A stretch of 27,283 nt of DNA from a virus: IMG/VR virus record IMGVR_UViG_3300035698_013216, positions 1 to 27,283 of that record; one strand, 5' to 3'. The position numbers and the translations under genes are program-made. Of the stretch, positions 1 to 21,826 are shown piece after piece; within the stretch, counting starts at the first letter, position 1, and every line of letters begins with the position of its first letter. Below the pieces are notes generated by a model. The model was not told the origin of the DNA. It saw only the letters and a list, made by a program, of their open reading frames with translations, and made no database searches.

Positions 1-3000
1 ATTGATGCCGCGCGTCAGTCGACTCAGCTTGTAGGCGGAGCGCGCATCGGAGAACAGCTTTCCGGAATTCGCCAGGCGCTCGTAGACGGCGAGCGAATCA
101 AGATCATCGAGCCAGGCCTGACGCATGCGGCGCATCAGGTCGGTTGAGATCATCTCCTTGAAACGCTCACCAATGGAGAGTTTCGGGCGTCCGATCTTTC
201 CTTCCATCGCGCGGATCGCGGCAAGCTGTTCTGCTGACAGGCTGTTGGCGACCTCTTCGCTGACCTGCTCCAGGGTCTGGGTGTTCGAGAGGGGTTTTGC
301 CCGGCGCTGGCCAATCGTACCGCCCTCGACATGAGCGAAGATGTCGTCAACACGACTGTAACCCATGCCGCTCAACGTATTTGCCAGGCGGCGCAGGAAC
401 GTCGCGATCTTGTCGAAGATGCTGCGGAACCCAGGGGGATACTTCGTGCCGCCGCGGTAGTCCGCGAAGGCCTGGGCGATCGCTTCTTCCTGCTGCTGGC
501 GACCATTGAGATCCGGATAGCGCCGCGCGATGTCGTACTTGGACATCCACGTATCCTTCGCCTTCTGCTCGAGCACAAGCCATTCACGGTTTGTGAACAT
601 GCCCAACTGGCGAAGCGCGTGAAGCGCCTCATGGCGCAGAGTGTTCTCCGGGTTGTCGTAGTTTAGGGCCACCGAGATCATGTTCTCGGTCGGGTCATAC
701 TGTCCCTTGATCTGACGGTTGGGATTCGCGCGAGAGAACAGTTCGTCAACCATGCGCATACGGGCGCCGGGTGCGATCTTTCTCAGGATATCCTTGATGC
801 GCGTGGCAATCTCACCGCGCTCACCCTCATACTTCTCGGTATAGGCCGGCCGGGTCACTTCCGATCTGGATTCGGAGGGCTGCGGATCATCGAGGCTTTC
901 GAGAGCGCCGCCCTCAACCTGGTTGGAAGCGTCCGGGGTCCCGGTGATCCTTCGCGCCGTCTCCAGGGTCGGAGCCGAATCCGTCTGGAACCCTTTGCCC
1001 ACCGTTTCCATTATGGCCGTCACGGCATCGAGGAACTTCCCCTCTTCGGTGTAGGGAAGTTTCTTGACCCAATAGACGCGGCCACCTTCCTTTTTGTATT
1101 TGAATACGACCTCTTCGTCATTGGCCGGGTCTGTCCGCAGGGCGCGCAGAACTTCCGGGGAGTTCAACACAGGCTTTGATTTCTGCGCCCGCACCTGAAT
1201 GATCCAGGACTGATCACTGTCGCGCTTCAACTGGACGACCTCATCGGTCGAGTTGGCGTAGCCGTAGAGGGCTTCCTCTTTGAGGTATCTGACGATCTGC
1301 TCCGGCGTCGAGAAGCCAACCGGCAATCCAGAAAGGTCGTTGGCGTCGAAGTCTGTGGGCAGGAGAACGCCCATGTTCACACCGCCATCGTGTGTCGAGT
1401 AATAGGTGATCGCACCCTTTTTCAGGAGAGCAAAGCCGGGGAGGATGTTGCCATTGATCATCCAGCGGTTCACGCGGCGGGCGCGCTGGTTGCTTTCCAT
1501 CAGGTCGACCATTTTCTCATAAGGCATCCCGCGGACCTGCCTGAACTCGGATGGGGTCTGTTCGTTTCCATCAACCCCAAGCGGGTTCACGATCTGGGTG
1601 AAGCGGACATTCATCGAGCGCGACTCACCATCCGCAACCGCGAACTCATAAGACAAGGCGCCGAGAGACAGCGGGTCCTTGCGGGATGTGTCGTATTTCA
1701 GGCCGGCAACCAAGCCACGGACCATTTGATCGGAGCCGTCCCCCCTTTTGGTGGACAGACGAACACTGCTGCCGATCGGAGTGCTCCGAATCTGCTCCGC
1801 AATTCTTTCATACAGCAACGCGCGGCTCTGGAGCCTGTTCTGCATGACCACAATTTTCGCGCGAAGTTTCGGCTTGTCGTTGTCGTCGGCCTTTTCAAAC
1901 GCGGCCTCGAGATCCTTGAGGGACGCTTCCATGGGCCGCTGATACATCTGCTCCCGCCGACCAATGGACTCGAGCACGGCGCGCTGTTGTAGCTTCCCAG
2001 CACGGCGGACGGCTTGGATCTCTCTCGCCACACTGGCCGGGACGGGGCCGACTGCCGGGCCTCCATCATCGTCCATGCGGGCTTCATCCGATGTCAATTC
2101 GTATGGGGGAAGCCGGCCCTCGAGGCGAGATGCAACATACTCAAGATATTGCTCCTGGGTCATCGGCTTGACCACCTGGTCAATCTCAACCTTGTCGAGA
2201 TACGCCGCCTCGTTAAACGCACTGTCACCGTCAGTCGCGGCAACGAGTGTGCCCCGGCTCAACAGCTTGGCATTCAGGTTTTTGAAGTCAGCTTCCAGGG
2301 GGTTGTTCCCCATCGCCAACTCCTGGTCCAGGATTGCCTTAAAGGAGTCGGTCAACTCCCGATACAGCGTGGTCTGGGATGGCAGTATGGCATCGCCGGC
2401 CAGGGCCATATCGTGATCAACCGAAAGCAAGGCGGCGCGGCCTGTCAGCTTTTTCAGAAGTGCTTCGCCGGTGGTGTTCCTGGCGATTCCCAGGAAGACC
2501 GGGAGCGCCGGATAGTTCGCCATAAGTTCCTGCGCCGCCTGGTAGCCGATGACGTTGAAGAAATCGACCTCATCATCCTTTGTCGAAATGGCAGTGGTCC
2601 GCGAAGACGTGGTGTTGGCGTTCAGCGTGCCCATCTTCTTCGCCAGGACTGCGGCCGGGCGTTTCTCGGACGGTATGTCACCGACCAAGACACTGTACTT
2701 GGGCAACACAACCTGACCGGTGCGGTTGATGCGCCCGAGAAGCTGGACGTGATTGTTGATGTCAGACTCGGCCTGCACGATGATCATGTGCCGCTGCTTC
2801 TGATCCTTGTAATGCTCGCTTGCGTGCAGCGAATATCCGGTGGCGCCGGACTGGTTCAAGATCAGCGCATCGAGCGTGCCGGCGTTGAAGCTGTTCATCT
2901 CTTTCGACTTGGCGCCTTCGTTCGAGACACGCTTTTTGATCTCTCCCGTTTCCAGGTCGACCATTGTCGAGCGGCCGGTGATCTCTCCAACAGATATGTC

Positions 3001-6000
3001 GTTCTCTGCGAGGATCTGACGAATGCGATCGATCGGACTGATAGACATGGAACTCAGGTCCTGGGCGTTGATCTGATCTTCCATGCCCTGGAACTGAACC
3101 AGAATTCCGAACTGCTGCATATCGTCTTCGGTCATCTGAATGCGGAGTTTGCCGTTCTTGTCGGCTTTGCCGTATTCGGTCACCTGGTTGGGCTTGAAAC
3201 CACTGAATGTGGAAGTGACCGTCTTGCCCAGATAGCGGTGATAAACCGGCGTGAACGATGTCTCCTGCATCGTGGAGCCAACCATCAGGTTCGACTGCTC
3301 CATGAAATCTGCCATCTGGGCTTCCATGGTGTTCGCCACGGTGATGACGGGCTTCTCTCCGGCCTTGTGGGCCTCAACCGCCATGTTCGCGGCCTGGTCT
3401 GCCTTCATGGCAAGAAGAGACTGGCCAACAACATTGTGCATGAGGGCCGAGAATGTCGTGTGATCTGCTCCAACGCCCTTGGCGGTTGATGCCGAAACAC
3501 CAAGATTGCCCTGCAATTCCTTCGCCCACCGATCCCGCGCGTCTGAAATTATTTGATCAAACTCGAAAATGTTGCGGACGAGTGTGGCATTGCTTTCAGC
3601 CAGATTGCGATCGATCGTGACTTCGACGTTCGGGATGTCGATGCCCTTGAAGGATTTCTCGCGACGGATGTACGCGGCGTCTTCTGTCAGCCGGGTTGAA
3701 ATGGCCTGCAACAGCGGGTCGCCACCCTTTTTGAGTGCTTCCTGCAACGCATCTGAGGACTGCACGGCCTCGGAAATTGAGGTCGCACCATACAAACCAA
3801 TCTGGTGCGGGCGCTTGGCGAAGGTGGCGCTCGAATAGAGAACCGACTTTGCCTGCATTGTCAGTGCGCGGAAATACTGGCCCACCGTCATGTTCTCTTT
3901 TTCGGCGTCGGCTTCTGTACCGCCCGCATTGTGGGACTCATCGAGAACGAGATAGGAACTCTCAATCAGGCCGTTCATCATGTTGTGGCGCTTGGTCGGG
4001 TTCCCATCAACAGTCTTCAACTGGTCATAGGTCGTGAAGATGATGTCCACATCTTCGTGTAGCGTCCCCTGCGTCATCGCCTGGGTCATGATCGCGTCAG
4101 ACTTCGGGTGCGACATGATCTTGGTCCCGTCCTGGGCCACAATCGCATTCGAATCCGTGATGCCGTCATTCGTGATAAAGACCCTTGCATCGTCCCAGCC
4201 GATATCCACCAGGTCGCGATACATATCCTTGTAGAGGCCGGGCTTGGCCGTCACAAAGATGGGGGGCATACCGGTCAGGTGGGCGTATCGCAGCGATGCG
4301 GCCACTACCCGGCCCTTACCAACGCCCGTCTGGTCGCCAATAATGAAGCCCTTGCCCTTGTCCGCATTCACGAGGGAGAAGGCCAGCGCGTCGATCTGTT
4401 CGGCCGAGAACCGGTCCTTGAACTCCTCGCGCGAGATGTTGTTCATCTGCAACTTGTCAGCCACGTACTGGCTGATCACGGCGCCGCGGTCTGCAATCTT
4501 CCGATAGCGCGGCTCTTGGCGCAGGCGGGAAATCAGCTTCTCGATGGCACTGTCGATCGCGGTCTGCTGGTTTTTTGGGACAAGCGTTTCAACTGAGCGA
4601 TGATCACTGCCGGGGATGTAGTCCGACTGGTAGTCGCTGGCGTGCTCTGACTTCTCGCGGATGTTGCGGCGGCGCGCGATCTCCGCTTCCACATCGACTG
4701 TTTCTTCGTCTTCCACAAGGGCTGCATCAAGAGCGGCGTCAGCCAGCGGATCGATCTTGCCTGTTTCCACATCTCTATAGAACCGGCTCAGACCTTTCCC
4801 CATCCGCAGGGTTTGTGCCTTGGTGGCGTTCTTCTCCTCAAGAACGCGCAACATCCCCTGGACCCACTGCCGGGCTGTCTCCCCGTTCGTCAATGCGTCT
4901 GCATATGTGTTTGTGAGAGTCGGGATTGCCCGCGCGTACCATTCCTCGAAGTCCGCGTCGTCGCTCTGCTCTTCGGGTTTGGGCCTGGCATCATGAACTT
5001 CCGACGCCATCAATATATCATCGATAGCATCGCGACGCTTATCGTCCAGTTCCTCTGTGGTGAGTTTTCTTACCGGCTTGCTTCGACCGCCAGGCTCAGA
5101 AACTCCTGGAGCGTCATTGCCTTCGCCCGTTCCACCTGTCTCGCTGTTGGGCGTTTCAGGTTGTCCGGATCCGGCATTCCCGTTGCCATCGTCATCGTTT
5201 CCGTCCGTAGCAGGAGGTGCCCCCACTGGGTTATCGGCTGGTCCACGATCGTCGCCAGTTCCGTCCTGACCGGGTTGTCCAGGAAGTCTTGTATCAGGAC
5301 CATTGCCTGGTCGTGCCCCGCGTGGTTGATCAGGTCGTCCAGTCTGGCTTCCACCCGTTGGCGGTACGCCGCCAGGCTGTGATCCTCCAGTGCCGGCTCC
5401 ACCAGTGTCAGTAGCGGGTCCGCGTCCGCCAGAAACGTCGCGTCGGGATGTGTTGAGGATTGCGCCATCCATCCGTCCTTTCAGTTGATTGATGTCGGTC
5501 ACCAGCGGCGGCAGTGCCCCGTTGGGATAGGCAAGAACAGTGTCGGTCGCGCCCTGATCGATCACGATGACATCGACCGGCCATGCTGCGCCCTGGGATT
5601 TGTAGAGTTCACCGGAAACCGTGAAGTGATCCTGCACCTTGTAGGTGTCATAGAGCCACTTCGTAAAACGTGCGCTCTTGGGACCCATGTTCTGCTCACC
5701 ATCGCCCCGGCCATACCGCAGGGATTTGATGATCAGGACGGCGCGTCCGTTTGTTTCATTGAGCGCCTTCAACGCATTTTCGGAAATCGCATGATCGATG
5801 GAGGTCGTTGAGCCGAACTCGGTGTTGTACTCGGTGTTGCTGCCGCCTTCTCCCACGACCGTTCCAAACGGCGGGTTGGCGAGCACAACATCAACCTGGG
5901 TTCCAAAGCCGACCCCGGCTGCATCCTCATTCGTGACATCGAAGCCCATGGATTCGAGCGCGGCCCGCCGTGCGCTGTCGATCTCGTTGGCCCAGGCCAG

Positions 6001-9000
6001 CTTCGGATCAGCCTCGATCAGGAGCGCGCCGTTCCCGGCTGTCGGCTCCAGGACGGAGGTATCGCCATCAACCCCGGCCATCTTGGACGCGAGATAGGCA
6101 AGCGTGAGGGGCGTGGAATACTGCTGACGCCGGCTGCTGACATCCGTGCGGGTGTTGAGAGCAGGCAACAGGCCCTCCAGCGTCTCCAGCGTGGCCATCT
6201 TGGCCCGGTCGCTCTTGTCACCCTGCACAACGTCGCGCGCGGCAAGCACCTTCGCCACTTCAAGGATCTCGTCCTTTGTCTTCGCATCGATGTCACCACC
6301 AACCAAAGTCGTGATCAGGTCCTTGATCTCCTTGCGGGTCAGCGCCTTTTCAGAATCCAGTCGGCTCGAGAGAAGCCGGGAGAAGTACGTGGCCAGTGCA
6401 AAACTATCAGGGGCATCGGGCGTGCCGTATTCACCGGACTCGCCCATATCCTCGATATCGGCGCTGCCCTCCTCGACCTGGGCCACCAGGTCCGGATAGT
6501 CCTCGAGCACTTCTTCGGAAACGGGCTTGCCCTCTTCGAGAGCCTGACGGATGAGGATCCGGTGCGGATAGTCGCGCTCGAAATCATCGAAGTATTTGTG
6601 ATGGCCAGCCGTGATCTTGCGATATGGCTTGCCGTCGCGGGTCTGGTGTGGATCAACGGCGATCTCGACCGAGGCTTTAAAGCCCGCAGCAATATCGATC
6701 ATGTGCTCGATCTCGTGCCGAACAACAATGATTTGAGCAAAATCTTCGAGGGTGTCCGAAATCTCTAACCCGACGATCTCCTTGCCACGGTAGATGACAC
6801 GCCCATGCGTTACCCCCGTGGGGGAGAACGGAGACTTGATCTTCCTGATCTTGATTGGTGGCAGGTCATACCGGTCACGGTAGTAGTCGTAGATCCCCTG
6901 CAACTTGTCGGTTCCGGCAAGTTTGACGATGCGCTCGGCCACGGCCGGATAGTATTTCTTCCACGCCGTTGCATCATCGACCTGACGGAATTCCTCGCGG
7001 GTCATCTCCCATGCTTCACGGAAGACCTCTTCCTTCGGCATTAACTCATTGATGATGTCATCAATGTTTTCACCACCGGCAAGCGCGTTGTTCGGCCGTC
7101 CTGTGCCCTCATCCTGGCCACGCGGGGCCGCTGGGCGCGTTCCAGGGCCTTCCGGGGTATCTGTTCCCCCATCCGATGGTGTCGGAGCCTGCGGACCTCC
7201 TGGAGCCTCTTCCTCTGGAGTGACAGGGGAAGGAGTTTCCGGCGTCGTGGGTTCGGGCGCGGCCGGGGTTTCGGGCGTCGGCGCCTCGGGCGTGGCAGGT
7301 TGGGGCGCCTCCGGCTCTGCAACCGGGGAGGACGGCGGAGCCGTTGGAGACGCCCCGGCACCCGGCCCGGTGCTCGGGTTGGGCTGCGAGATGTTGATCT
7401 CTTTGCCCTGATGAATGACCTTCGAGATCGGCCGGCCACCAACAGCGTTGCCCTCTTGACCGGTGATGTTGTTGATCGCCTGGATCATCTCCGGCGTGAT
7501 GTCAGAGGCGTGCATGCCGCTGAGCGGGAGGATCGCCACCGGGATCGGGACGTTCGGCTGCTTGCTGCGAATGGCTTCCACGCGCGCACGGCCTTCATGC
7601 CCGCGTACCTTGATTCCCTCTGGCGTCATCTCGACACTCAGGAACGGCATGCCCATGGTGGCGCCGCGGTCGATCAGGCCCGCAAAGGCACCCGATCGCT
7701 GACTGATATCCGGATCGTTCTGGGACGATTCCAGGAATGCCGAAGGCGGCATGAATGCCACGGCACCTTCATATTCAATGTTCTGTGCGGACGGGACTGC
7801 GCCGATGCCACGGGCGTTGTTGAACACCACTTCGCCCACGCGACCGCTCGATCCCTCGAAATCTGCTGCCGCATTCTTGCCGTTATTGATCTGCTCCGGG
7901 CCGAACTCGGGGATCTCGGAAGGCTCGCGCTCCTCATACGCATTCACAAGCCCGCGCTCGTTCCCGATCTCCGAGAGGCGCTGCCGCACTTCCTGGGGGG
8001 TTTCCTGGGACTGGTCGCGATCCTGCGCGAGAAGCGGGGTTTCTTCTTCTTTAAGCTGCTCTAGCCGCTCTTCTCGGGACTGGGCGAACGGTTGCCAAGG
8101 GGGAGTGCGGCCTTGTGCCGGGCTTTCCTCTGTCGCAGATTCATCTGCCACCGGCGCAGCAGGTGCCTCCGGCGCTTGCTCATTTGCTGGTGGTGCTGCG
8201 GTCGGTTCCTGCGGGGCACTGGCTCCTCCGTCATCGCCCTGATCACCCTCTGGATCAGCAATCGGAACGCCCGTATCCGGATCAAACGCCGGTTGGCCGG
8301 TCGGGGCTGCATCACCTTCGGGTGTCTCACCATCGAATGTCGGGGCATCTTCGTCAATGCCGCGCATCACATTGTCGTCTTCGGGCGGGGGAGGCGGTGT
8401 CGCGGGACGATTCTGCCTTTGTCCTTCAACTATCGCGCCCGGAATTGCCAGCGGTCCTGCACCGAAGCCGCCAGCGGCGGCAGCCTCAAGCATTTCTTTC
8501 ACAACGTCTTTGGTGAAGATTTCATCCAGGGACTTGCCCTGCTCCAGGCCAACCCTCGCGGCACTGATCCCGGTCTGCGCGCCTTCTGTGCCAGCCTCAC
8601 CAAGAGTTGTCTTGGGATATTCAGCCGCGAGGCGCCGCCAAAAACTACGCTTTAGAAGGTCTATTCCCTCTTCGGCAACTTCCCCGGCAACCTTCTTTGC
8701 ACCTAAGTTATGGAGCGCCTGACCAATTCTGGCGGCAGGGCCTAACCACTTCTCCATGAGCGCATAGGGGATTGCCCCCAACATGGAGTTGACGCCTCTG
8801 GGGTCCTTTATCTCATCCATGGCGGCGCCCTGGAGATCACCCAGACCCATTCCTCCAAGGACAAGCATGCCTAAAGCGGGATGAATTCTGAACGCGAGAA
8901 TGGTCGGAAGAGCAGAAACTGCTGCTTGTCCAACACTGGCGCCGGCCCAGGTCCCGAAATCCGCCAGCATATCGTCGCTCTCGAAAACCTGTTCGAGAGT

Positions 9001-9996
9001 CGGCTTGTACCCAAGATATTGAGTGGCCTCGCGAGAAAACTCCTCGTACTTGTTACGCGACCATTCATCGACGTTGCCGATTTTCTGGCCTGTGGCCCGC
9101 TGGAGTTCATCAACAACGGTATCAAGGGCGGTTACAGCAAACCCATGAAACGACTTGTATGCCGAATATGCACCACGACGAAAAGCGCCGTAGTCCTGCA
9201 TGTCGTTGTGGCGCTCGAGATATTGCGCGAACTCTTCCGGGTCCCGCGGAACAAGCGATCCCAGGTCGTTACGTGCCGTATCCGGGGCCTCGGGCTGCTC
9301 CTGGGGCTGCTGCTGACGAGAGGTGGCAATGCCCTTCTCCAGCGAAGGCAACAGCGCCTCAACGTAATCCGCGGTTTCCCTCGGGACGGTGCCGGTCATG
9401 CCGCCGTCGACCCACTTCTGCGTGGCCGTAGGACCCCAGTTGTAGGCCATCAAGGCCAGAGCCGGATCCTCGAACTTCTCCAACTGCTGGGAAAGGTATC
9501 GGATGCCGCCCTTGAGGTTCTGTTCCGGGTCATAAGGATCGACACCCAGTTCCTTTGCCGTGCCGGGCATCAACTGGGTGAGGCCGATCGCGCCTTTCGG
9601 GGATACAGCCTTTGAGTCGTGGCCGCTCTCACGTCCGACCCAATTTTTCACGAAGTCATTGCTGATGCCGTTCGGCAACAGGAACCCACCGCCGCTCGCG
9701 CCCGCTGCTGGGCCTGCGCCTTCGGGTGCCGGTTGCCATCCCTTGTCCGCCTGGAACGGGTCAAACATGATCCGCTGACCGGAATCGCTCTCCATGTATT
9801 GAGGGGTTGTGACGCTCTGTTGTGCCGGCGCAGCTTGAGGCGCGGCCGCAGCGGGAGCACCAGCATTCGGCGCAGCCTGATACGGTTGCCACCCCTTATC
9901 CGGTGCAGCAGGGTCATAATATGCTCGCTGCCCGCCATCGTTTTCGATGACAGGCAGTCCAGCGGAAACAGGATCGAAATCCCCAGTATTAGACAA
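1..9996 (-). CDS. Giant polyvalent virion-type protein (lytic transglycosylase, ParB-like, methylase, helicase, HExxH modules), 3'-truncated by window
   Basis: I read every in-frame codon from 9996 to base 1 and found no stop, so at least 3332 residues are encoded and the end lies outside the window. The start is TTG 9996: an in-frame TAG (the stop of the upstream gene) lies just before it, and AGGAGG sits 5 nt upstream. Modules, by residue: two short GQR..DP..DKGWQP repeats (22-38, 73-89); soluble lytic transglycosylase domain (about 105-205) with catalytic-type Glu123 in GRES, then GAIGLTQLMPGTA and AYNWG; a hydrophobic stretch (about 353-395); ParB/DdrB-like domain with GHEGRAR (799-805); HEIEH (1094-1098), followed by GKPVSEEVLEDYPDL, a string common in such proteins; N6-adenine methylase with EPTAGNGALL (from 1317) and NPPF (1374-1377); Gly/Pro-rich linker (about 1510-1640); Strawberry-notch/SNF2-type helicase with GVGKG (Lys1894), DESH (2019-2022) and GRINRTGQ (2421-2428); HEALH (3122-3126). 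Roles are inferred from these families: wall penetration, then modification or protection of injected DNA. It resembles DarB/DdrB-type polyvalent proteins. Entry with the DNA is inferred from gene position only. Confidence 0.93.
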   Translation of the reverse strand, partial: MSNTGDFDPVSAGLPVIENDGGQRAYYDPAAPDKGWQPYQAAPNAGAPAAAAPQAAPAQQSVTTPQYMESDSGQRIMFDPFQADKGWQPAPEGAGPAAGASGGGFLLPNGISNDFVKNWVGRESGHDSKAVSPKGAIGLTQLMPGTAKELGVDPYDPEQNLKGGIRYLSQQLEKFEDPALALMAYNWGPTATQKWVDGGMTGTVPRETADYVEALLPSLEKGIATSRQQQPQEQPEAPDTARNDLGSLVPRDPEEFAQYLERHNDMQDYGAFRRGAYSAYKSFHGFAVTALDTVVDELQRATGQKIGNVDEWSRNKYEEFSREATQYLGYKPTLEQVFESDDMLADFGTWAGASVGQAAVSALPTILAFRIHPALGMLVLGGMGLGDLQGAAMDEIKDPRGVNSMLGAIPYALMEKWLGPAARIGQALHNLGAKKVAGEVAEEGIDLLKRSFWRRLAAEYPKTTLGEAGTEGAQTGISAARVGLEQGKSLDEIFTKDVVKEMLEAAAAGGFGAGPLAIPGAIVEGQRQNRPATPPPPPEDDNVMRGIDEDAPTFDGETPEGDAAPTGQPAFDPDTGVPIADPEGDQGDDGGASAPQEPTAAPPANEQAPEAPAAPVADESATEESPAQGRTPPWQPFAQSREERLEQLKEEETPLLAQDRDQSQETPQEVRQRLSEIGNERGLVNAYEEREPSEIPEFGPEQINNGKNAAADFEGSSGRVGEVVFNNARGIGAVPSAQNIEYEGAVAFMPPSAFLESSQNDPDISQRSGAFAGLIDRGATMGMPFLSVEMTPEGIKVRGHEGRARVEAIRSKQPNVPIPVAILPLSGMHASDITPEMIQAINNITGQEGNAVGGRPISKVIHQGKEINISQPNPSTGPGAGASPTAPPSSPVAEPEAPQPATPEAPTPETPAAPEPTTPETPSPVTPEEEAPGGPQAPTPSDGGTDTPEGPGTRPAAPRGQDEGTGRPNNALAGGENIDDIINELMPKEEVFREAWEMTREEFRQVDDATAWKKYYPAVAERIVKLAGTDKLQGIYDYYRDRYDLPPIKIRKIKSPFSPTGVTHGRVIYRGKEIVGLEISDTLEDFAQIIVVRHEIEHMIDIAAGFKASVEIAVDPHQTRDGKPYRKITAGHHKYFDDFERDYPHRILIRQALEEGKPVSEEVLEDYPDLVAQVEEGSADIEDMGESGEYGTPDAPDSFALATYFSRLLSSRLDSEKALTRKEIKDLITTLVGGDIDAKTKDEILEVAKVLAARDVVQGDKSDRAKMATLETLEGLLPALNTRTDVSSRRQQYSTPLTLAYLASKMAGVDGDTSVLEPTAGNGALLIEADPKLAWANEIDSARRAALESMGFDVTNEDAAGVGFGTQVDVVLANPPFGTVVGEGGSNTEYNTEFGSTTSIDHAISENALKALNETNGRAVLIIKSLRYGRGDGEQNMGPKSARFTKWLYDTYKVQDHFTVSGELYKSQGAAWPVDVIVIDQGATDTVLAYPNGALPPLVTDINQLKGRMDGAILNTSRRDVSGGRGPATDTGGAGTGGSQPGGVPPTGGSQTGRPDQPRGARPGNGPDTRLPGQPGQDGTGDDRGPADNPVGAPPATDGNDDDGNGNAGSGQPETPNSETGGTGEGNDAPGVSEPGGRSKPVRKLTTEELDDKRRDAIDDILMASEVHDARPKPEEQSDDADFEEWYARAIPTLTNTYADALTNGETARQWVQGMLRVLEEKNATKAQTLRMGKGLSRFYRDVETGKIDPLADAALDAALVEDEETVDVEAEIARRRNIREKSEHASDYQSDYIPGSDHRSVETLVPKNQQTAIDSAIEKLISRLRQEPRYRKIADRGAVISQYVADKLQMNNISREEFKDRFSAEQIDALAFSLVNADKGKGFIIGDQTGVGKGRVVAASLRYAHLTGMPPIFVTAKPGLYKDMYRDLVDIGWDDARVFITNDGITDSNAIVAQDGTKIMSHPKSDAIMTQAMTQGTLHEDVDIIFTTYDQLKTVDGNPTKRHNMMNGLIESSYLVLDESHNAGGTEADAEKENMTVGQYFRALTMQAKSVLYSSATFAKRPHQIGLYGATSISEAVQSSDALQEALKKGGDPLLQAISTRLTEDAAYIRREKSFKGIDIPNVEVTIDRNLAESNATLVRNIFEFDQIISDARDRWAKELQGNLGVSASTAKGVGADHTTFSALMHNVVGQSLLAMKADQAANMAVEAHKAGEKPVITVANTMEAQMADFMEQSNLMVGSTMQETSFTPVYHRYLGKTVTSTFSGFKPNQVTEYGKADKNGKLRIQMTEDDMQQFGILVQFQGMEDQINAQDLSSMSISPIDRIRQILAENDISVGEITGRSTMVDLETGEIKKRVSNEGAKSKEMNSFNAGTLDALILNQSGATGYSLHASEHYKDQKQRHMIIVQAESDINNHVQLLGRINRTGQVVLPKYSVLVGDIPSEKRPAAVLAKKMGTLNANTTSSRTTAISTKDDEVDFFNVIGYQAAQELMANYPALPVFLGIARNTTGEALLKKLTGRAALLSVDHDMALAGDAILPSQTTLYRELTDSFKAILDQELAMGNNPLEADFKNLNAKLLSRGTLVAATDGDSAFNEAAYLDKVEIDQVVKPMTQEQYLEYVASRLEGRLPPYELTSDEARMDDDGGPAVGPVPASVAREIQAVRRAGKLQQRAVLESIGRREQMYQRPMEASLKDLEAAFEKADDNDKPKLRAKIVVMQNRLQSRALLYERIAEQIRSTPIGSSVRLSTKRGDGSDQMVRGLVAGLKYDTSRKDPLSLGALSYEFAVADGESRSMNVRFTQIVNPLGVDGNEQTPSEFRQVRGMPYEKMVDLMESNQRARRVNRWMINGNILPGFALLKKGAITYYSTHDGGVNMGVLLPTDFDANDLSGLPVGFSTPEQIVRYLKEEALYGYANSTDEVVQLKRDSDQSWIIQVRAQKSKPVLNSPEVLRALRTDPANDEEVVFKYKKEGGRVYWVKKLPYTEEGKFLDAVTAIMETVGKGFQTDSAPTLETARRITGTPDASNQVEGGALESLDDPQPSESRSEVTRPAYTEKYEGERGEIATRIKDILRKIAPGARMRMVDELFSRANPNRQIKGQYDPTENMISVALNYDNPENTLRHEALHALRQLGMFTNREWLVLEQKAKDTWMSKYDIARRYPDLNGRQQQEEAIAQAFADYRGGTKYPPGFRSIFDKIATFLRRLANTLSGMGYSRVDDIFAHVEGGTIGQRRAKPLSNTQTLEQVSEEVANSLSAEQLAAIRAMEGKIGRPKLSIGERFKEMISTDLMRRMRQAWLDDLDSLAVYERLANSGKLFSDARSAYKLSRLTRGIN
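5070..5468 (-). CDS. Candidate overlapping gene (132 aa) inside the giant ORF, +1 frame
   Basis: A complete ORF lies wholly within the methylase-helicase linker of the giant gene, in the +1 frame. It starts at ATG 5468 with AAAGGA at 5476-5481, 7 nt upstream, and a TGA in its own frame overlaps that site, so it is not a read-through of upstream sequence. The predicted protein looks like an ordinary helical protein rich in Leu, Ala, Asp and Glu, with stretches such as LAAYRQRVEARLDDLINHAG and MVLIQDFLDNPVRTELATIV. By contrast the giant protein is a Gly/Pro/Asp/Asn/Thr-rich string here. Other minus-strand shadow ORFs in the giant gene are Arg/Ser/Pro-rich and look unlike proteins. I recognise no family. 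It may be a real overprinted gene, the relic of one whose frame was absorbed as linker, or chance; sequence alone does not decide. Confidence 0.42.
   Translation of the reverse strand: MAQSSTHPDATFLADADPLLTLVEPALEDHSLAAYRQRVEARLDDLINHAGHDQAMVLIQDFLDNPVRTELATIVDQPITQWGHLLLRTETMTMATGMPDPDNLKRPTARQVERAKAMTLQEFLSLAVEASR
9730..9933 (-). repeat. Two-copy protein repeat at the giant protein N-terminus
   Basis: Residues 22-38 and 73-89 of the giant protein are two copies of a 17-residue motif, GQRAYYDPAAPDKGWQP and GQRIMFDPFQADKGWQP, separated by an Ala/Pro/Gln-rich spacer. Each is preceded by an acidic END or ESDS turn. They lie ahead of the transglycosylase domain, so they may bind a virion partner or act as a packaging tag; this is inference. 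Confidence 0.7.
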
Positions 9997-10008
9997 TAAC
10001 GCCTCCTA
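9997..10008 (-). promoter_or_regulatory. Ribosome binding site that fixes the TTG start of the giant gene
   Basis: On the minus strand the order is TAG (stop of the 527-aa gene, 10006-10008), an AGGAGG at 10002-10007 overlapping that stop, CGTTA, then TTG at 9996. The TAG is in frame with the giant ORF, so no start further upstream is possible. The next in-frame ATG is codon 68 (9793-9795), which would remove the first repeat copy and has no comparable site. A near-perfect ribosome site with a weak TTG suggests coupled, moderate translation. Confidence 0.75.
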
Positions 10009-11589
10009 CGTGACGGGCTTCCAGTTTCCAGGAGGCGGTGGGGGAAAATTGGCTGGGGCGACTGATGGTGCCGTTTGCTGCGCAGGAGTTGCGCTTCCAC
10101 CTGACTGTTGAATCAGGTTCATAATATCCTGCCGCCGCGCGGCAAAGTTGGCCCGCGTTTTTGCGATAGCGGCCTGCTCTTCCTGCGGTGTCACCGTAGT
10201 TTGCGAATTCATGAAGTTTTTTTGCAGTGTTTCGATCGCGTCCTGCTCTGCCTCATCAAGCGAAGCAAGGGCACTTTGGGCGTCAATCGCCTGCCCGGTT
10301 CTGGCCTGCTCTGCGCGCATCAACGAGATTTCATTCTGCATCTTCTGATTATGCTGCTGGAGGACCAGCGTGGCCTGTTTCAGGTTCGTGGTTGCTTCAA
10401 GCTGCTTTTTGTCGAGTTCCAGGCCACGAGCGAACTGGCTTTCCTCGCGGCCGGCTTTCGCGGCTGCGGCCTTCTTCGCATCCGAACGCTCCTGCGTTCC
10501 AAGGCCTGCTCTGCCAGCCGCGCCCAGTAGGCTCGGTCCAACTTCCGCCCCAGGCTGCGCCTCGGACTCGGCCATCATGCGCAATCCGAAGTTAAGCAGA
10601 TCGTCTTTGTTCCGATCGAGGAAGCTGCCCTGGCCGGGGAATGTCGGCGCTGGAGCGGCTGCGGCTGGTGCTGGTGGCGCACCCGGAGCAATGGTAGGGG
10701 CCGGCATCGGCATCTGTGGTTTCGGCATCGGCTGGGCGTTGGCCGTGTCGGGTTGGGCGGAAGCGCGAATTCGGTCAGCCACGGAAACCGGGGCCGGTGT
10801 AACGACAGAAGCGGGGGCAGGTCCCACGACTGTCTCCGGCCCCGGCGCCACCGGCCCGACCGTCGCGACCGGTGGTGTCGTAATGTCTTCTGGCCTCACA
10901 CTGTTTGGTGACAGCATGTTGGCCTGCTCGCGAGCCGTACCGCGCTGCTGCTGTGCAGCGATAAGGGATTGCGGAGTGCCGCCGTGATTGCGGACATCAG
11001 AAAGAAAATCGCCTGCACGCTCCATAAATCCGGCACCCGGATTTACAACGTCATTGGCTGGAGCGGCGGGAGCCTGCGCCGGCGGCTGCTGACGCCCCTG
11101 CGCGCGCCTCTCCTGCGCTGCGTTAAAGTCTTTGCCATGAACTCCGTGTTTGGTGACATCAGCAATCCAGTCACCGGCCCGGTCCAGAAAACCGCCTGCC
11201 GGGGCCATGTCAATTTCTTCACGAGAAGGGGCATATCCTCCAGATTGCGGCACGGGCTGCTGCTGGGGCGGCGCCACCGGGGCCTGGCCACCAATCTGAG
11301 GCAATCCGGGTCCGGCTGCGGGGGGCATCTGGGGCAAACCGTTTTGCAGATTCCCCGGCAACGGCGTCTGTCTAGGAACAGGAAGTCCGGCCGGGGCCTG
11401 GCCACCAATCGTGGGAAGCGGCGGCTGGGGCTGGCCTGGCTGAACAGGAGTGACCCCGCGTTGTGTCATCTGCGCCTGTACGGCGCGATGAAGCGGGGAT
11501 CCGGGCTTATCCGCAGCAATTTGACGCTCAACCGCCTGCAACTGATCAGGTCCCAGACCATCAAGAATACTTTGTGTCGATGCCGCCAT
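10006..11589 (-). CDS. Ala/Pro/Gln-rich putative ejection (internal virion) protein, 527 aa
   Basis: No named family is recognised. ATG 11589 follows GGAG by 7 nt, and the gene starts 11 bases after the stop of the 322-aa gene. The first 320 residues are mostly Pro/Ala/Gln/Gly linker with embedded repeats: GGFLDRAGDWIADVTKHG (132-149), AGFMERAGDFLSDVRNHG (186-203) and a partial third copy, GSFLDRNKDDLLNFGLRM (321-338); IGGQAP also occurs twice (61-66, 99-104). Residues about 365-490 are charged, Ala/Gln/Lys-rich and probably coiled coil; the end is Pro-rich (NFPPPPPGNW). Low-complexity helical proteins placed between tail-hub genes and a transglycosylase-bearing giant gene fit ejection proteins, as in P22 or T7, but this rests on context. 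An alternative is an assembly chaperone or scaffold for the giant protein. Confidence 0.85.
   Translation of the reverse strand: MAASTQSILDGLGPDQLQAVERQIAADKPGSPLHRAVQAQMTQRGVTPVQPGQPQPPLPTIGGQAPAGLPVPRQTPLPGNLQNGLPQMPPAAGPGLPQIGGQAPVAPPQQQPVPQSGGYAPSREEIDMAPAGGFLDRAGDWIADVTKHGVHGKDFNAAQERRAQGRQQPPAQAPAAPANDVVNPGAGFMERAGDFLSDVRNHGGTPQSLIAAQQQRGTAREQANMLSPNSVRPEDITTPPVATVGPVAPGPETVVGPAPASVVTPAPVSVADRIRASAQPDTANAQPMPKPQMPMPAPTIAPGAPPAPAAAAPAPTFPGQGSFLDRNKDDLLNFGLRMMAESEAQPGAEVGPSLLGAAGRAGLGTQERSDAKKAAAAKAGREESQFARGLELDKKQLEATTNLKQATLVLQQHNQKMQNEISLMRAEQARTGQAIDAQSALASLDEAEQDAIETLQKNFMNSQTTVTPQEEQAAIAKTRANFAARRQDIMNLIQQSGGSATPAQQTAPSVAPANFPPPPPGNWKPVT
10924..11196 (-). repeat. Tandem-like amphipathic repeat in the 527-aa protein
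   Basis: Residues 132-167 and 186-222 share the pattern G-G/A-F-L/M-D/E-R-A-G-D-W/F-I/L-A/S-D-V-x-K/N-H-G, followed by an AAQ-rich basic stretch (AAQERRAQGR and AAQQQRGTAR). A third, degenerate copy, GSFLDRNKDDLLNFG, lies at residues 321-335. The spacing and shared aromatic/acidic pattern suggest short amphipathic helices of one kind, separated by disordered linkers. Confidence 0.75.
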
Positions 11590-11600
11590 TTAACCGCTCC

Positions 11601-12569
11601 CTAGCCCATCAAGCCGTAGTTGGCGGAGTCGAGATAACCCATACCATTGCCGGAACTGCCGCGGCTGCCACCCGCCGCGGCCTGGAAGGCAAGGCTCGTG
11701 CCACCGGTGAAGTAAGCGCCCGCTGCGGTAGCTGCCAGACCGGCAAGCTGGCCAAGCGTGTTCGACTTCGCAACCTGTCTTTCGCCTCTGGTTTCAACCG
11801 TGCGTCCTGTCGGAATTCCGGAAAGCAGTGAGAGCAGGTATTGAGACTGATCCTGGGGATACACGAACTCATTCATGAACTCTTCATAGGTCATGTCGGC
11901 AAGGCGCTGTTCCTGCTGCTGCTGCTGCTCGCCAATATTTTGTAGTGACGCTGCGTCCGTGAGGTTCGTTTGCTGGGTCTGTTGCCCCAAGTTTGAGAAA
12001 AGACCGGCTGCGCTGGCATCACGTCCTCTCTGCTGATTGGCCTGGACAAGCGCATTCTGGAACCCCTGCATGTAAAGCTGGGATGAGGCGTTCGCGATCG
12101 TGTCGTTTTCACCCTCATTCGCGAGGTTGTCGATTACCTGGCGGCGGTCCTCATTCAAGTAGGATCCGCTTTTTGACATCCCGGCATTGCGATCAATCCG
12201 CTGACGCTGCGAATTCTCCGTGATCCGCTTGATCACATTGTCGACAACGCTGTCGGTATAGGGATTGAGATATGCGTTGATATCGCTCTGACCAACCGGA
12301 GCATGGCTCGCCGTGGTCGCAGCCGCGGCCTGATTGATATAGGGCTGGGAACCGCCAATGTTTTGTCGGATGAGGTCGAAGGCTGCAAACTGATCCGGCG
12401 TCAGGGTTGCGAGGCGATCACCTGGGTCGTAAGTGGGGGCCGGCCGGGCCGCATTAACCAGACCCTGTTTGTAGAGGTCTTCCCCGCCCTTCTCAACCCA
12501 TGCCGGTAGGGACACCTTCTGGGTCGTTAGGGTCGGTACTGTTTTCGATCCCCCTCCAAACAGTCCCAT
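11601..12569 (-). CDS. Gln/Ala-rich minor structural protein, probable ejection protein, 322 aa
   Basis: ATG 12569 (MGLFGGGSK) is preferred over TTG 12575 because GGAGG lies 6 nt before the ATG. The protein has an N-terminal Gly-rich tip, a middle with INAYLNPYTDSVVDNVIKRI and ENSQRQRIDRNAG, a Gln-rich helical region with QQQQQEQR, and a C-terminal hydrophobic Ala/Gly segment (LGQLAGLAATAAGAYFTGG) before a Gly/Ser-rich tail. From memory, proteins with the N/AYLNPYT plus helical layout are common in podovirus-like structural blocks and are usually annotated as structural or injection proteins. The Ala/Gly segment could insert in a membrane. Its first 77 bases overlap the end of the GNAT gene in another frame, so the two are translationally linked. 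Confidence 0.85.
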   Translation of the reverse strand: MGLFGGGSKTVPTLTTQKVSLPAWVEKGGEDLYKQGLVNAARPAPTYDPGDRLATLTPDQFAAFDLIRQNIGGSQPYINQAAAATTASHAPVGQSDINAYLNPYTDSVVDNVIKRITENSQRQRIDRNAGMSKSGSYLNEDRRQVIDNLANEGENDTIANASSQLYMQGFQNALVQANQQRGRDASAAGLFSNLGQQTQQTNLTDAASLQNIGEQQQQQEQRLADMTYEEFMNEFVYPQDQSQYLLSLLSGIPTGRTVETRGERQVAKSNTLGQLAGLAATAAGAYFTGGTSLAFQAAAGGSRGSSGNGMGYLDSANYGLMG

Positions 12570-13032
12570 CTTCAACCTCCAAAGCGTCTAGCCCGTGAAA
12601 GAAAAATTCACCGCCGACTTGCATCATCCGACGATATAGCTTGTTCTTCCGATTCGGCTTTCGGCGTGAAATCAGGCCAATAGCTATAGGTAATTGCGAT
12701 TTATCTGCAAATTCAGTCGCAGCATTCAGCAAGTCGCCGGCTATCTTGTACCTCTGATATTCTGGGGCAATGTAGGAAAACCCCGAAAAATGAAGTTCTT
12801 TAGAAAACCACCATTCCTGCAATGTCAGCAAAACAATGCCTGCCGGTGACCCATCAACTCGGGCAATATAGATGATGCCCGTTTTCAGAGAGAGCAGGAC
12901 CTGGTTGCGGACCCGATCTTCTTCAAGGGGGACATCCGGCCATTCTTCCTCAAGATACTGCTTCATCAGCAATACCGCTGTTTCAATGTCTGCCGGTCCT
13001 GCCATGGACACTAACTGCTCATGATCACTCAT
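12493..13032 (-). CDS. GNAT-family N-acetyltransferase, 179 aa
   Basis: The start is ATG 13032, which overlaps the TGA of the upstream gene as ATGA; a longer reading from TTG 13059 is possible but has no support. The fold pattern is GNAT: a substrate-side helix (IETAVLLMKQYLEEEWP), strand and turn IIYIARVDGSPAGIVLLTL, the central strand plus acetyl-CoA loop YIAPEYQRYKIAGDLL (87-102), a helix, strand IAIGLIS, and the late LYRRMMQVGG typical of the family. The pyrophosphate-binding loop is degenerate (QRYKIAG rather than Q/RxxGxG/A). The last 20 or so residues are acidic, lack GNAT features, and are encoded in the overlap with the next gene. The substrate is unknown: a virion protein, a host protein or a small molecule are all possible. 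Its place among tail and ejection genes is notable. Confidence 0.75.
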   Translation of the reverse strand: MSDHEQLVSMAGPADIETAVLLMKQYLEEEWPDVPLEEDRVRNQVLLSLKTGIIYIARVDGSPAGIVLLTLQEWWFSKELHFSGFSYIAPEYQRYKIAGDLLNAATEFADKSQLPIAIGLISRRKPNRKNKLYRRMMQVGGEFFFHGLDALEVEDGTVWRGIENSTDPNDPEGVPTGMG

Positions 13033-13466
13033 CCTGCCATCCACTTCGTTCCTGTCCAAACGAGTTCAACTCTGCCGTAATCTGCTGTTATCACATACGA
13101 TGTCGCGCCGTTGATCGTATCAGTGCCACCGCGATTGATGGTGATGTTGTTCGATGACGCAGCGCCGCTGCCATCAATGACCGTGATTTTCGTGCCGATC
13201 GTCGGGGATTGTGTCAGGGCCAGGGCCACGGCCGCTGCAAAATTGACGATCACATATTCATCAGCAATCGAAAGGTTGCCGGATCCAGCGGTGATGTTCG
13301 TGATGTGGACGCGCCGACCCTTGGTCGTGATCAGGATGTCTTTTGCCTCCAGGGGGCCGCGCAGCCCGTCAAAGTACCTGTTCAGCAGGGCCACCATGCC
13401 CGATGCCCAGTCCGGGCCAAAAGAGGTCGGCGGCTGGATATTGCCGGGCCGGTCGGTCGCGCCCAT
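13029..13466 (-). CDS. Beta-rich fibre-tip-like structural protein, 145 aa
   Basis: ATG 13466 overlaps the stop of the gp10-like gene (TAATG), and its own stop overlaps the GNAT start, so it is the middle of a coupled trio. After a helical N-terminus (PDWASGMVALLNRYFDGLRG), the rest is beta-rich: VHITNITAGSGNLSIADEY, ITVIDGSGAASSNNITINRG, INGATSYVITADYGRVELVW and a final TGTKWMAG. This glycine-turn pattern ending in an aromatic G-T-x-W strand is common in phage fibre tips and appendage domains. I infer a small tail-tip or appendage subunit attached near the hub; a head-completion role cannot be excluded. Confidence 0.8.
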   Translation of the reverse strand: MGATDRPGNIQPPTSFGPDWASGMVALLNRYFDGLRGPLEAKDILITTKGRRVHITNITAGSGNLSIADEYVIVNFAAAVALALTQSPTIGTKITVIDGSGAASSNNITINRGGTDTINGATSYVITADYGRVELVWTGTKWMAG

Positions 13467-15223
13467 TACCGCTTCGCCCCGCCGTCCACTTCAAAGATGA
13501 ATGCACCGGCCCGCCACTTTTCAGTGCGAGTTTCCGAACCGGCCAGCCTCAATCGGATCTGTCGACCATCGGCGTCCTGGTCCAGCTTTTCTGTGGTCGA
13601 GGTCGCATTCCCATATGACCGGGTGACCTCCGGGGAATTCGGATACTCCCGCGTCAACAGGCTGATAGCCAGATTGCCATCGAGGTTTTTCAGATCGGGA
13701 ATGATGGCGACAATCTCTGTGATGCTTTCACCGCCTTGTATTTGGGGCAAGGCCGCGCTCTCAATGAACTCGTTCATGGCCGCACCATCTGCATTGGCGC
13801 CGACTTCATGGTCATAAATGAAGAAATCCGACCCGGCCATGATCGGCCTCGAGAACACATCACTGTCAATTCCGAAGGTGCGGTCGATCGACCCGACATC
13901 CCACCGGCGTTCGATGGTGTTGTATTTGACGTATCTGTCGTTCTCCAGCGCGCTCGGCCAGAGGAACCATATCTCATTGAACTGGGTCACCGGAAAAGCC
14001 ACGACCTTGCGCCGCTCTGATTCGGCCATGGTGGCGAAGACATACTGCCGGATATCCTGGGAGTTGATCATTGTCCGGATCGTGCCGTCATAGCGGTAGA
14101 AGTCACCGTTGCCCATCCAGTAGACCACGTTGTCGATCTCGGCCACCGCGTTCGGGCCAATCAAGCCGCTCGAACCACCGGCGATCTGCACAAACGAGAA
14201 CGGGTTAAGCCCGCCGATGAAGGTCATGGCCCAGACTGCCGCGTCCGTAAAGATGAGGTTGGTGCCGCGCGATCGGATTCCCCGGTATATTTCAGACCCG
14301 CCGATGATCTTGCGCGATCCCGCTGTATTGAGGTCGGAAGGCGTCCAGACCGTGTTGTCATCCTGATCACACCACGCAACCAGAAGTTTGTCCCCGTCCG
14401 CCCCCAGCGCGACACAGTGCTTCTCCTCGGTCACAAACATGCTCGAGTTCTGTGTCGGCGCGTTCGCGAGAAGCGCGGCCGGCGCGCTGCCGTCATTTTG
14501 CCACTCATAGATCGATCCGCCAGACGGCGAGGCCAGGATGAATGCCCCCCAGCGATCCAGTGACCATACAGTCGGCGGCAGCAGGATGAACGAGGCGCGC
14601 GGCGTATTCCAGGTGCCCCGGTTGTATTGCCCAACGCCCCAGCCCGCGCCTTGGACCGAATGCTCCCGGCCGATGTTCAACTGATACTTGATCGTCCCTG
14701 ATCCGCCGCCGCCTGACACAGACGATGCCGCAGAAACACTGTGTTGAATCGTGTAGTTGTCGTTATCGATCACGGTCGCGACGGTGTAGTCCCCATCAAT
14801 CGTGATCCCGCCAACGGCTCCATATGACGCAAAATTGACTGCATCACCGACTGTCGCGGCATGGCTCGTGTCCGCCACGCTAACTGCGGTGGAACCGGCA
14901 ACCGTGGTGAATGGGTCGGTGGGTGTGACTGTCCGCCTGATAGGCGTGATGTTGATAATGGCCGATCCTTCAACCGCCATCAGTTTGCAATGGGTCCCCA
15001 GGATGAGACGTGCGGTATTCGAGTTGTCGATATAGGCCAGCATGTTCCGGCACTTACCGGAGAACTGGGCGGCAATGCGTTTGTTCCAGCCGCCGATCAT
15101 CTCTGGAAGGCCGCGGACAAAGCGCATTTTGTCGGAATCAACCCACCTGGGCTGGGCCGAAAGGTCTGTCGAATCCTTCACAACTCCGGAGAGGATTTCG
15201 ATCCGTTTGTCGCGCGGCGCCAT
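13466..15223 (-). CDS. Tail hub / packaged-DNA stabilization protein, P22 gp10-like, 585 aa
   Basis: The start is ATG 15223, placed at the end of the adaptor gene with no gap. The protein is long and beta-rich with features of the P22 gp10-type (nozzle or tubular B) family: an N-terminal WVDSDKMRFVRGLPEMIGGW, then repeated propeller-like strands such as WSLDRWGAFILASPSGGSIYEW, LLVAWCDQDDNTVWTPSDL, VVYWMGNGDFYRYDG and NEIWFLWPSALENDRYVKYN. An inserted Ser/Thr/Val-rich domain (about residues 95-180) interrupts the N-terminal part. Known role of the family: it sits below the adaptor and plugs or extends the tail channel, keeping packaged DNA in. The gene order portal, capsid, adaptor, hub supports the assignment. 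Assignment to gp10 rather than a T7 gp12-like tubular protein is tentative. Confidence 0.8.
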   Translation of the reverse strand: MAPRDKRIEILSGVVKDSTDLSAQPRWVDSDKMRFVRGLPEMIGGWNKRIAAQFSGKCRNMLAYIDNSNTARLILGTHCKLMAVEGSAIINITPIRRTVTPTDPFTTVAGSTAVSVADTSHAATVGDAVNFASYGAVGGITIDGDYTVATVIDNDNYTIQHSVSAASSVSGGGGSGTIKYQLNIGREHSVQGAGWGVGQYNRGTWNTPRASFILLPPTVWSLDRWGAFILASPSGGSIYEWQNDGSAPAALLANAPTQNSSMFVTEEKHCVALGADGDKLLVAWCDQDDNTVWTPSDLNTAGSRKIIGGSEIYRGIRSRGTNLIFTDAAVWAMTFIGGLNPFSFVQIAGGSSGLIGPNAVAEIDNVVYWMGNGDFYRYDGTIRTMINSQDIRQYVFATMAESERRKVVAFPVTQFNEIWFLWPSALENDRYVKYNTIERRWDVGSIDRTFGIDSDVFSRPIMAGSDFFIYDHEVGANADGAAMNEFIESAALPQIQGGESITEIVAIIPDLKNLDGNLAISLLTREYPNSPEVTRSYGNATSTTEKLDQDADGRQIRLRLAGSETRTEKWRAGAFIFEVDGGAKR

Positions 15224-15870: not shown

Positions 15871-15956
15871 TGTGGCCTCCTACGGCACGGGCACGGTTTG
15901 TTGACGCGCTTTCCTGAACGAACCTGCCAGTCCTCTTCGTCGTCGCAATTCCTCAT
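15867..15956 (-). CDS. Putative 29-aa Cys-containing microprotein
   Basis: This tiny ORF exactly fills the gap between the glycosyltransferase fusion gene and the adaptor gene. Its ATG (15956) overlaps the upstream TGA as ATGA, its TGA (15867-15869) overlaps the adaptor ATG in the same way, and GAGAAGG lies 4 nt before its start. The product is acidic at first (CDDEEDW), then strongly basic and Cys-rich (NKPCPCRRRP). The CPC pair plus Cys4 could bind metal or form a disulfide, and the basic end could bind nucleic acid. Alternatively it only couples translation of its neighbours. No family is recognised. Confidence 0.5.
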   Translation of the reverse strand: MRNCDDEEDWQVRSGKRVNKPCPCRRRPQ

Positions 15957-19404: not shown

Positions 19405-20409
19405 CTAGACCGCCGAATCCCACTTTGCGATGCGCTCCTGGTCGGCCGAAGAGTGGACCTTCCCGAAGCCAAGCAGGGCATACCAGGCGACACCCTTGGA
19501 GCGACCGTAGTCACTCGGGATCTTGCCTCGCATTTCCTCGCCAATGACAAGGCCTTCCGCCACGGTGTCTTCACCGAAGAAGAATGCCCAATCCGAAGCG
19601 CCGTTGTTCCAGGCATCGGGCGTCTGCGCCGTCCAGGTCGTGGAGTCCGCAGCGCCGCCCTTGGCGATATGGGTCTGTTCGCAGAAGCGGACATTCTCAT
19701 ACCGGCCAATTTCGCCGTTGTGGATCTTCACAAAGCCCTGCTCGGTGTACTGATGGATGGCCTCGAGGTCATCTTTCAGCGTGCGATAGGTCGAAACCCA
19801 TGCGATCGACATAAAGTCGTCCCCGATGTACGGCGGGATATTCCGCTCCTTCATCGTGTCCGAGATTGCCTTCACATGGCCTTTGCCCAGGGCGACGTTG
19901 TTCGTGCCCGTGGCGGTGCCGTTGGTCGTCAGGGTGACGCCGGTGGTGGACGTGCCGGAAGTCGGTACGAACCGGAGCAAGGCGTCATCGAACTGGGTGT
20001 GGGCATCGATGTCGAATGCCTTTTTCGCGTCGTTCTTGAGGACCTTGTGGATGATCTCCTTGACCGGGTGCTCGGACAGATCGTCCAGCTTGCCCGAATA
20101 GGGGACCGAGTTGCCATACTCCGTGACCGTCAGGGTGCCCTGAGTGATCGTGAAGTTGGTTTCCGGCATGGTCGACGTTTCGGACAGAGTACCGCCCTGA
20201 TCCGCTGCATCGGAATAGATATCCCAATGGAACGTGTCGCCCTTACCAAGCTGACCGCCGCTGCTGTTACGTGAAGCAGTTGCGTCCTTGGCGTCGCAGA
20301 ATTGACGAAACTTCAATGCAGGCTGAACGGCCATGCGAAGTTCGCGTGAGAGTTTGTCGGAATACATATAGCCACCGAGCGTGTCGGTGACCCAAAGCTG
20401 ACCAGACAT
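19405..20409 (-). CDS. Major capsid protein, N4-gp56 family, 334 aa
   Basis: ATG 20409 has GGAGG 8 nt upstream. The protein has the marks of the N4-gp56 coat family: an N-terminal YSDKLSRELRMAVQPALKFR, a Gly/Lys-rich E-loop-like segment (SGGQLGKGDTFHWDIY), ITQGTLTVTEYGNSVPYSGK with DDLSEHPVKE following (88-117), the A-domain side DDFMSIAWVSTYRTLKDD, and EQGFVKIHNGEIGRYENVRF (223-242) before a FFFGEDTVAEGLV stretch. It forms the icosahedral shell with an HK97-like fold (known for the family). Length and position after a scaffold-like gene agree. Hairpins follow the gene, and with the terminator further down they would favour abundant capsid mRNA. Confidence 0.9.
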   Translation of the reverse strand: MSGQLWVTDTLGGYMYSDKLSRELRMAVQPALKFRQFCDAKDATASRNSSGGQLGKGDTFHWDIYSDAADQGGTLSETSTMPETNFTITQGTLTVTEYGNSVPYSGKLDDLSEHPVKEIIHKVLKNDAKKAFDIDAHTQFDDALLRFVPTSGTSTTGVTLTTNGTATGTNNVALGKGHVKAISDTMKERNIPPYIGDDFMSIAWVSTYRTLKDDLEAIHQYTEQGFVKIHNGEIGRYENVRFCEQTHIAKGGAADSTTWTAQTPDAWNNGASDWAFFFGEDTVAEGLVIGEEMRGKIPSDYGRSKGVAWYALLGFGKVHSSADQERIAKWDSAV

Positions 20410-21514: not shown

Positions 21515-21826
21515 CTAGGTTGTCGAATTGTTGGCATCAACGACTTCAACGTCAATGCCCTGCTGTATCAACTCTTCGATCGAATCCTGCATCCAATAGA
21601 ACCGTTGAACTCGATTCTGTAAATCATGAACTTTTGCAGCATCCGCGGGCGGGCATACTTCCGGACTGGCAATGTCGTCCTTTGCCTGCTCTGCCTCTGC
21701 TTGCAGTTTGAGCATCAATAGCTGAAAGGCAGGGTCATCTTTCAGCTTGATCAGGCGCTCTGCCGCGTCTTTGAGAACGTGTGCGCCTTCACCTGTTAGG
21801 CGGAGGGCTTCCGTTGTTTCCGTCAT
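21515..21826 (-). CDS. Small helical head protein, 103 aa
   Basis: ATG 21826 has AGGA 7 nt upstream and the gene overlaps the last 38 bases of the portal gene in another frame. The product is almost wholly helical and charged (EGAHVLKDAAERLIKLKDDP, LLMLKLQAEAEQAKDDIA, NRVQRFYWMQDSIEELIQQG), with one Cys. Coupling to the portal and placement before the scaffold gene suggest a role in procapsid assembly. No family is recognised. Confidence 0.78.
   Translation of the reverse strand: MTETTEALRLTGEGAHVLKDAAERLIKLKDDPAFQLLMLKLQAEAEQAKDDIASPEVCPPADAAKVHDLQNRVQRFYWMQDSIEELIQQGIDVEVVDANNSTT

Follow-up and report, generated by a model that had tools for sequence, protein, structure and literature searches.

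Gene content of the window

The stretch of DNA analysed here (the window) is an entire IMG/VR record of 27,283 bp, classed as linear, which carries on its minus strand a series of phage structural genes followed by one giant open reading frame (Table 1). The portal, capsid, hub and ejection genes share the strand of the giant gene and place it in a late, virion-gene context. The gene order 556-215-585-145-GNAT-324-527-giant is common to the window and three uncultured phages, G001, G002 and G012 (the 527-aa gene of G012 was matched by blastp, not by a stricter scan), and in 11 contigs besides the window, some of them near-duplicates, a giant is preceded by homologues of the hub and the 324-aa protein. 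Three phages with portals 36-40% identical (G006, G010 and G011) have ejection-type genes of ordinary size, with no LPD38 domain and, among the frames listed, none longer than 800 aa; G006 encodes a 645-aa transglycosylase protein. In Caulobacter phage RLK the 324-aa gene has a homologue, but behind it come only genes of 436 aa and 723 aa (sizes from coordinates).

Two further genes of the window were noted. An open-ended, fibre-like protein of repeated units (25455-27281, minus strand) is cut by the other contig end, and a single ORF within the block of tail genes (15953-17623, minus strand) encodes both a Methyltransf_11 and a glycosyltransferase-9 (heptosyltransferase-like) domain; this ORF is retained in many of the portal relatives.

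Table 1. Features of the giant gene and its neighbourhood (window coordinates unless another locus is named; aa, residues of the giant protein).
Feature	Position	Strand	Remarks
Giant polyvalent ORF	1-9996	-	at least 3,332 aa; 3' end beyond contig
Start of conserved C-terminal (LPD38) block	1-432	-	aa 3189-3332; remainder off contig
Metallopeptidase domain 2	403-852	-	aa 3049-3198; HEALH at aa 3122, downstream EEAIA
Conserved region after helicase	1207-2019	-	aa 2660-2930
Strawberry-notch helicase, C-terminal lobe (Helicase_C_4)	2515-2994	-	aa 2335-2494; Pfam 1e-23
Strawberry-notch helicase, first NTPase lobe (AAA_34)	3604-4371	-	aa 1876-2131; Pfam 4e-20
N6-adenine methylase region	5317-6270	-	aa 1243-1560; STP, LEPTAGNG, NPPF (aa 1374)
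Metallopeptidase-like domain 1	6457-6945	-	aa 1018-1180; HEIEH at aa 1094
Region around GHEGRAR	7447-7779	-	aa 740-850; GHEGRAR at about aa 799; proposed ParB-like, unconfirmed
Hydrophobic segment (weak)	8428-8484	-	aa 505-523
Hydrophobic segment, possible membrane helix (weak)	8857-8946	-	aa 351-380
SLT lytic transglycosylase	9406-9645	-	aa 118-197; catalytic Glu123; Pfam SLT 4e-18
N-terminal repeat, copy 2	9727-9798	-	aa 67-90; GQRIMFDPFQADKGWQP
N-terminal repeat, copy 1	9880-9951	-	aa 16-39; GQRAYYDPAAPDKGWQP
Ribosome-binding site (AGGAGG) of giant gene	10002-10007	-	5 bases before TTG 9996
g527, gene directly before giant	10006-11589	-	same-place homologues in G001, G002 and G012
Ejection-protein homologue, syntenic	11601-12575	-	weak PHROG 4287 match
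GNAT acetyltransferase of cassette	12493-13059	-
g145, tail/baseplate-like protein	13029-13466	-
Tail hub / "stabilization protein"	13466-15223	-	PHROG 3287
Major capsid protein	19405-20409	-
SU10-type portal protein	21789-24026	-
InPase domain of G001	L006 6656-18517	+	residues 612-746 of translation P0004; Pfam PF18823

Reading frame of the giant gene

An initial annotation of this DNA proposed a single frame of at least 3,332 codons between position 9996 and base 1, and the frame is indeed stop-free from TTG 9996 to base 1. Shuffling the bases of the window 100 times produced open runs of 370 codons at most, and the remaining two minus-strand frames contain stops in each 200-codon block; the giant frame is thus neither a product of chance nor the result of a concealed frameshift, the latter a caveat of that annotation, and no frame change was found within it. 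At its start, the stop codon of the upstream gene (TAG 10008-10006) is succeeded by the ribosome-binding site (10007-10002) and then by the TTG codon. Because the window is the whole record and the frame runs off base 1, the giant gene is 3'-incomplete; about 730-830 residues would be missing, judging by the proteins of G001 and G012.

Domain composition

The giant protein combines a transglycosylase, a methylase and a helicase in one stop-free frame, the joining of unlike domains that marks polyvalent proteins. The lytic transglycosylase that had been predicted around Glu123 is identified by its Pfam match and by alignment of Glu123 with the catalytic Glu of solved Slt70-type transglycosylases. 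An SLT domain is present in a giant-size frame in six of 48 records tested, which were contigs picked for the methylase motif or for kinship and yield no estimate of prevalence; no SLT match was found in the giant of G012. Ahead of the transglycosylase, a short repeat of the form GQR..(Y/F)DP...DKGWQP occurs twice (9727-9951, minus strand) in the first 90 residues. As to a pair of membrane regions like that of T7 gp16, the N-terminal segments of the window protein are weak and hydrophobic segments are fewer in total than expected by chance (114 in the proteins vs 280 in shuffles), so that only the recurrence of one such segment about 340 aa from the C-terminal end of many complete relatives is of note.

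Both HExxH motifs that had been pointed out, HEIEH and HEALH, are present. In the first peptidase-like domain, RHEIEH and an Asp three residues further on are invariant in eight phage sequences, and an Asp of this kind has been described in one phage-type peptidase clade (Iyer et al., PMC5512222). In the structural model of this domain (pLDDT 71.7), helices and three strands follow one another in a zincin-like order and the motif falls in the helix; a fold search gave no PDB match and weak SprT-/IrrE-like viral matches, and tblastn matched no phage record. The second domain has the classical zincin layout of HExxH plus Glu, in which HEALH is followed by an EEAIA motif conserved in the window, G001 and G012.

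The N6-adenine methylase and the Strawberry-notch-type superfamily 2 helicase of the initial annotation are both substantiated, the helicase by its two Pfam matches and by the motifs GVGKG (aa 1891), DESH (aa 2019) and GRINRTGQ (aa 2421), and the methylase, for which the Pfam matches are weak, by comparison with phage relatives. When the window protein is aligned with gp3 of Bacteroides phage BS-TP4 and a protein of an Acinetobacter phage, STP, LEPT.GN, NPPF, GDQTG.GKGR and DESH are invariant, as are the arginines in the final motif of the helicase, and the catalytic motifs are intact; STP before NPPF corresponds to the TP motif of polyvalent methylases (Iyer et al., PMC5512222). The fusion of an EcoKI/TaqI-type N6 methylase to a helicase of the SWI2/SNF2 clade is a further mark of polyvalent proteins. 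Used as a single sequence, the helicase region retrieved no relatives from IMG/VR, and the three-sequence alignment as query retrieved 83; dozens of similar giants exist in IMG/VR. No trustworthy solved relative was found by sequence for the methylase-helicase region, the portal or the 324-aa protein.

The complete giant of G012 (L109 8213-19663; 3,817 aa) shows no methylase motif, although helicase, C-terminal block and both peptidases are retained. The methylase-helicase pair is therefore not indivisible, and a separate role for the translocase is conceivable.

The one module of the initial annotation that was not confirmed is the ParB/DdrB-like domain at GHEGRAR. The Pfam ddrB-ParB model (PF18763) does not match this region at E values up to 1, and the same model does detect BS-TP4 and seven other records. 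No relatives of the region were found by tblastn against phages or by a scan of IMG/VR, and its single-sequence AlphaFold model (pLDDT 34.5) is unusable; the order of strands and helices predicted around GHEGRAR would suit a ParB fold, which is a weak hint. In G001, the nearest relative, the position between the transglycosylase and the first peptidase is occupied by an InPase domain (PF18823, 2e-46) in place of GHEGRAR, and so this zone appears to be exchangeable, probably through a domain swap.

Relatives and the shared C-terminal block

A non-iterated profile of the C-termini of G001 and G012 matches the last 144 residues of the window protein at 6e-32, which indicates that the protein enters a common block just before the contig ends. 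The same profile matches proteins of Vibrio phage 1.232.O (1e-131), E. coli phage PTXU04 (8e-118) and Planktothrix phage Pra-JY27 (1e-46); it matched 11 targets in all, and none in a reversed-sequence control. Iteration of the profile raised the matches to 34 of 63 targets, a result judged inflated and not used. Directly compared, the C-terminal 800 residues of G001 and PTXU04 gp25 share 31% identity in an alignment of 850 columns (E 8e-107). In the sister proteins the block continues into a Pfam LPD38 domain, before which the window ends; LPD38 is present in 23 of the 48 selected records, not always in the giant frame. On this sequence evidence, the C-terminal block is the feature that unites these giants, and the modules ahead of it vary.

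Several cultured phages have proteins of this kind. The structural block of Vibrio phage 1.232.O, which has an SU10-type portal, ends with a giant of 3,292 aa (NVP1232O_28, AUR96762) that resembles the window protein in its position and in possessing a helicase and a methylase, and that has LPD38; it differs in that the helicase precedes the methylase and is of the ResIII/Helicase_C type, in an additional GNAT domain, and in lacking an SLT match. PTXU04 gp25 (YP_009823381; 2,197 aa) occupies the corresponding place behind the ejection genes, where the structural block ends, and shares the homologous C-terminal LPD38 block and an HExxxH motif, but has no Pfam match for a transglycosylase, methylase or helicase. 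It has been named a putative polyvalent protein that is critical for fitness, its knockdown causing a large loss of plating with a library assayed in BL21 (PMC11879866). Pra-JY27 encodes a 2,803-aa LPD38 giant two genes after its homologue of the 324-aa protein, likewise where the structural block ends; this giant (L141 16555-24966), annotated merely as hypothetical, has a sub-threshold match to polyvalent ART. The giant BS-TP4 gp3 (5,391 aa) adjoins the portal gene and shares the methylase, Strawberry-notch helicase, HExxxH motif and LPD38, but has a true ddrB-ParB domain and an InPase domain, and no transglycosylase.

The window protein is, on good evidence, a clear member of the known polyvalent-protein class and not a new kind of protein. 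Like the members of that class (PMC5512222), it has many unlike enzymes in a chain, a methylase-helicase pair, HExxH peptidases, a lysozyme-type wall enzyme and a late-gene position, and its sisters have LPD38; the exact set and order of modules in a cassette of SU10-portal type was not found described in the literature searched. With T7 gp16 and SU10 gp20 it shares a transglycosylase (N-terminal in T7 gp16) and a position within an ejection cassette, but gp16-like proteins measure up to about 1,300 aa and have no methylase or helicase, the likeness being that of the SLT domain. With P1 DarB, which acts in cis in antirestriction, it shares the methylase-helicase (superfamily 2) pair; the helicase of the window is of the Strawberry-notch type, DarB having been compared by description.

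Proposed function

The initial annotation viewed the giant as a possible all-in-one machine for entry. Its identification as a polyvalent protein, its place after hub and ejection-type genes and its wall-enzyme-first order, which fits entry, are upheld, and the ParB/DdrB module is not. The polyvalent class and the reasoning about entry were already published in 2017 (Iyer et al., PMC5512222). The giant is probably the last gene of an ejection cassette in short-tailed phages of SU10-portal type, a protein with a shared C-terminal block and swappable modules that would open the wall, enter with the DNA and counter restriction through its methylase and helicase. The C-terminal LPD38 block would be the shared part, probably bound to the virion or the ejection apparatus. 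By analogy with T7 gp16 and SU10 gp20, the N-terminal transglycosylase would open peptidoglycan as proteins leave the head; the middle part may then reach the cytoplasm, where the Strawberry-notch translocase and the N6-adenine methylase would mark or shield the entering genome against restriction, and the two metallopeptidases may cut the chain into working pieces. We infer packaging, ejection, self-processing and antirestriction of the window giant.

This assignment of the C-terminal block to ejection, with the methylase-helicase pair as antirestriction cargo, draws on published systems. SU10 releases five ejection proteins, among them gp20, which has transglycosylase activity and to which degradation of the wall is attributed (PMC9509320); the transglycosylase of T7 gp16 lies at its N-terminus, and its cytoplasmic part binds DNA (PMC8954989); the methylase-helicase DarB of P1 is a virion component that confers protection in cis (PMC5512222); PTXU04 gp25 is as described above; and HelliStehle, a relative of PTXU04, is very sensitive to restriction (PMC11990801), as expected if the cargo missing there is the antirestriction part. 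Some observations count against this reading: gp25 was not among the proteins assigned from PTXU04 particles (PMC6563267), an SLT domain is not general in the giants, the G012 giant shows neither an SLT match nor a methylase motif, and the N-terminal hydrophobic segments are weak candidates for membrane helices.

It is unlikely, though the most credible of the alternatives, that the giant is made late and acts unpackaged inside the infected cell in DNA marking or take-over. Peptide fingerprinting of PTXU04 particles assigned four proteins (gp7, gp10, gp11 and gp12), gp25 not among them (PMC6563267), which agrees with such a role, but in several phages the giants sit in the cassette just where ejection genes precede them, and the polyvalent class has repeatedly been linked to virions (PMC5512222).

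Somewhat less likely still is a methylase-helicase dyad that shields the DNA physically or blocks restriction enzymes, the methylase motifs being kept for binding. The protective mechanism of DarB-type proteins is proposed and not settled (PMC5512222), which leaves room for such shielding, but the invariance of STP and NPPF in all three aligned proteins speaks against it.

The giant might instead be a translocase for entry itself, a Strawberry-notch motor that the ejection part anchors at the envelope and that pulls the genome in, with methylation secondary. The G012 giant, in which helicase, both peptidases and C-terminal block persist without the methylase motif, is consistent with such a motor, as is T7 gp16, for which a ratchet-like uptake of the initial stretch of the genome has been described (PMC8954989), but Pfam matches no helicase in PTXU04 gp25, so that PTXU04 needs no motor of this kind, and the idea is judged improbable. 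On a broader and equally speculative version, which we regard as a long shot, the LPD38 block would be a general docking and ejection platform of these short-tailed phages with cargo swapped by lineage, and the ATP-driven translocase of the window would reel the genome in while methylating it, entry and antirestriction being the work of one enzyme. That separate genes were fused by chimeric assembly or sequencing error is scarcely credible and is refuted for the part of the giant that was read: the frame does touch the contig end, but it is unbroken by stops or frame changes, the G001 protein aligns with it in one frame (2,509 aa, 36%) and has its modules in the same order, and complete giants exist in G012 and in cultured phages.

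Significance

The prediction of the polyvalent class dates from 2017, and tests have covered few of its members. The shared C-terminal block, of which 850 residues are present in G001 and the first 144 are visible in the window, ties the giant to PTXU04 gp25. E. coli BL21 is devoid of type I restriction. A role of the C-terminal block beyond antirestriction is hinted at, since gp25, with no recognisable methylase or helicase, blocks plaquing when it is knocked down in the BL21 screen. PTXU04 offers an E. coli phage in culture with which entry, assigned to the shared block, and defence, assigned to the swappable modules, would be separable, and the giant gains added interest because it links a common C-terminal block, an ejection slot and a tractable phage of E. 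coli.
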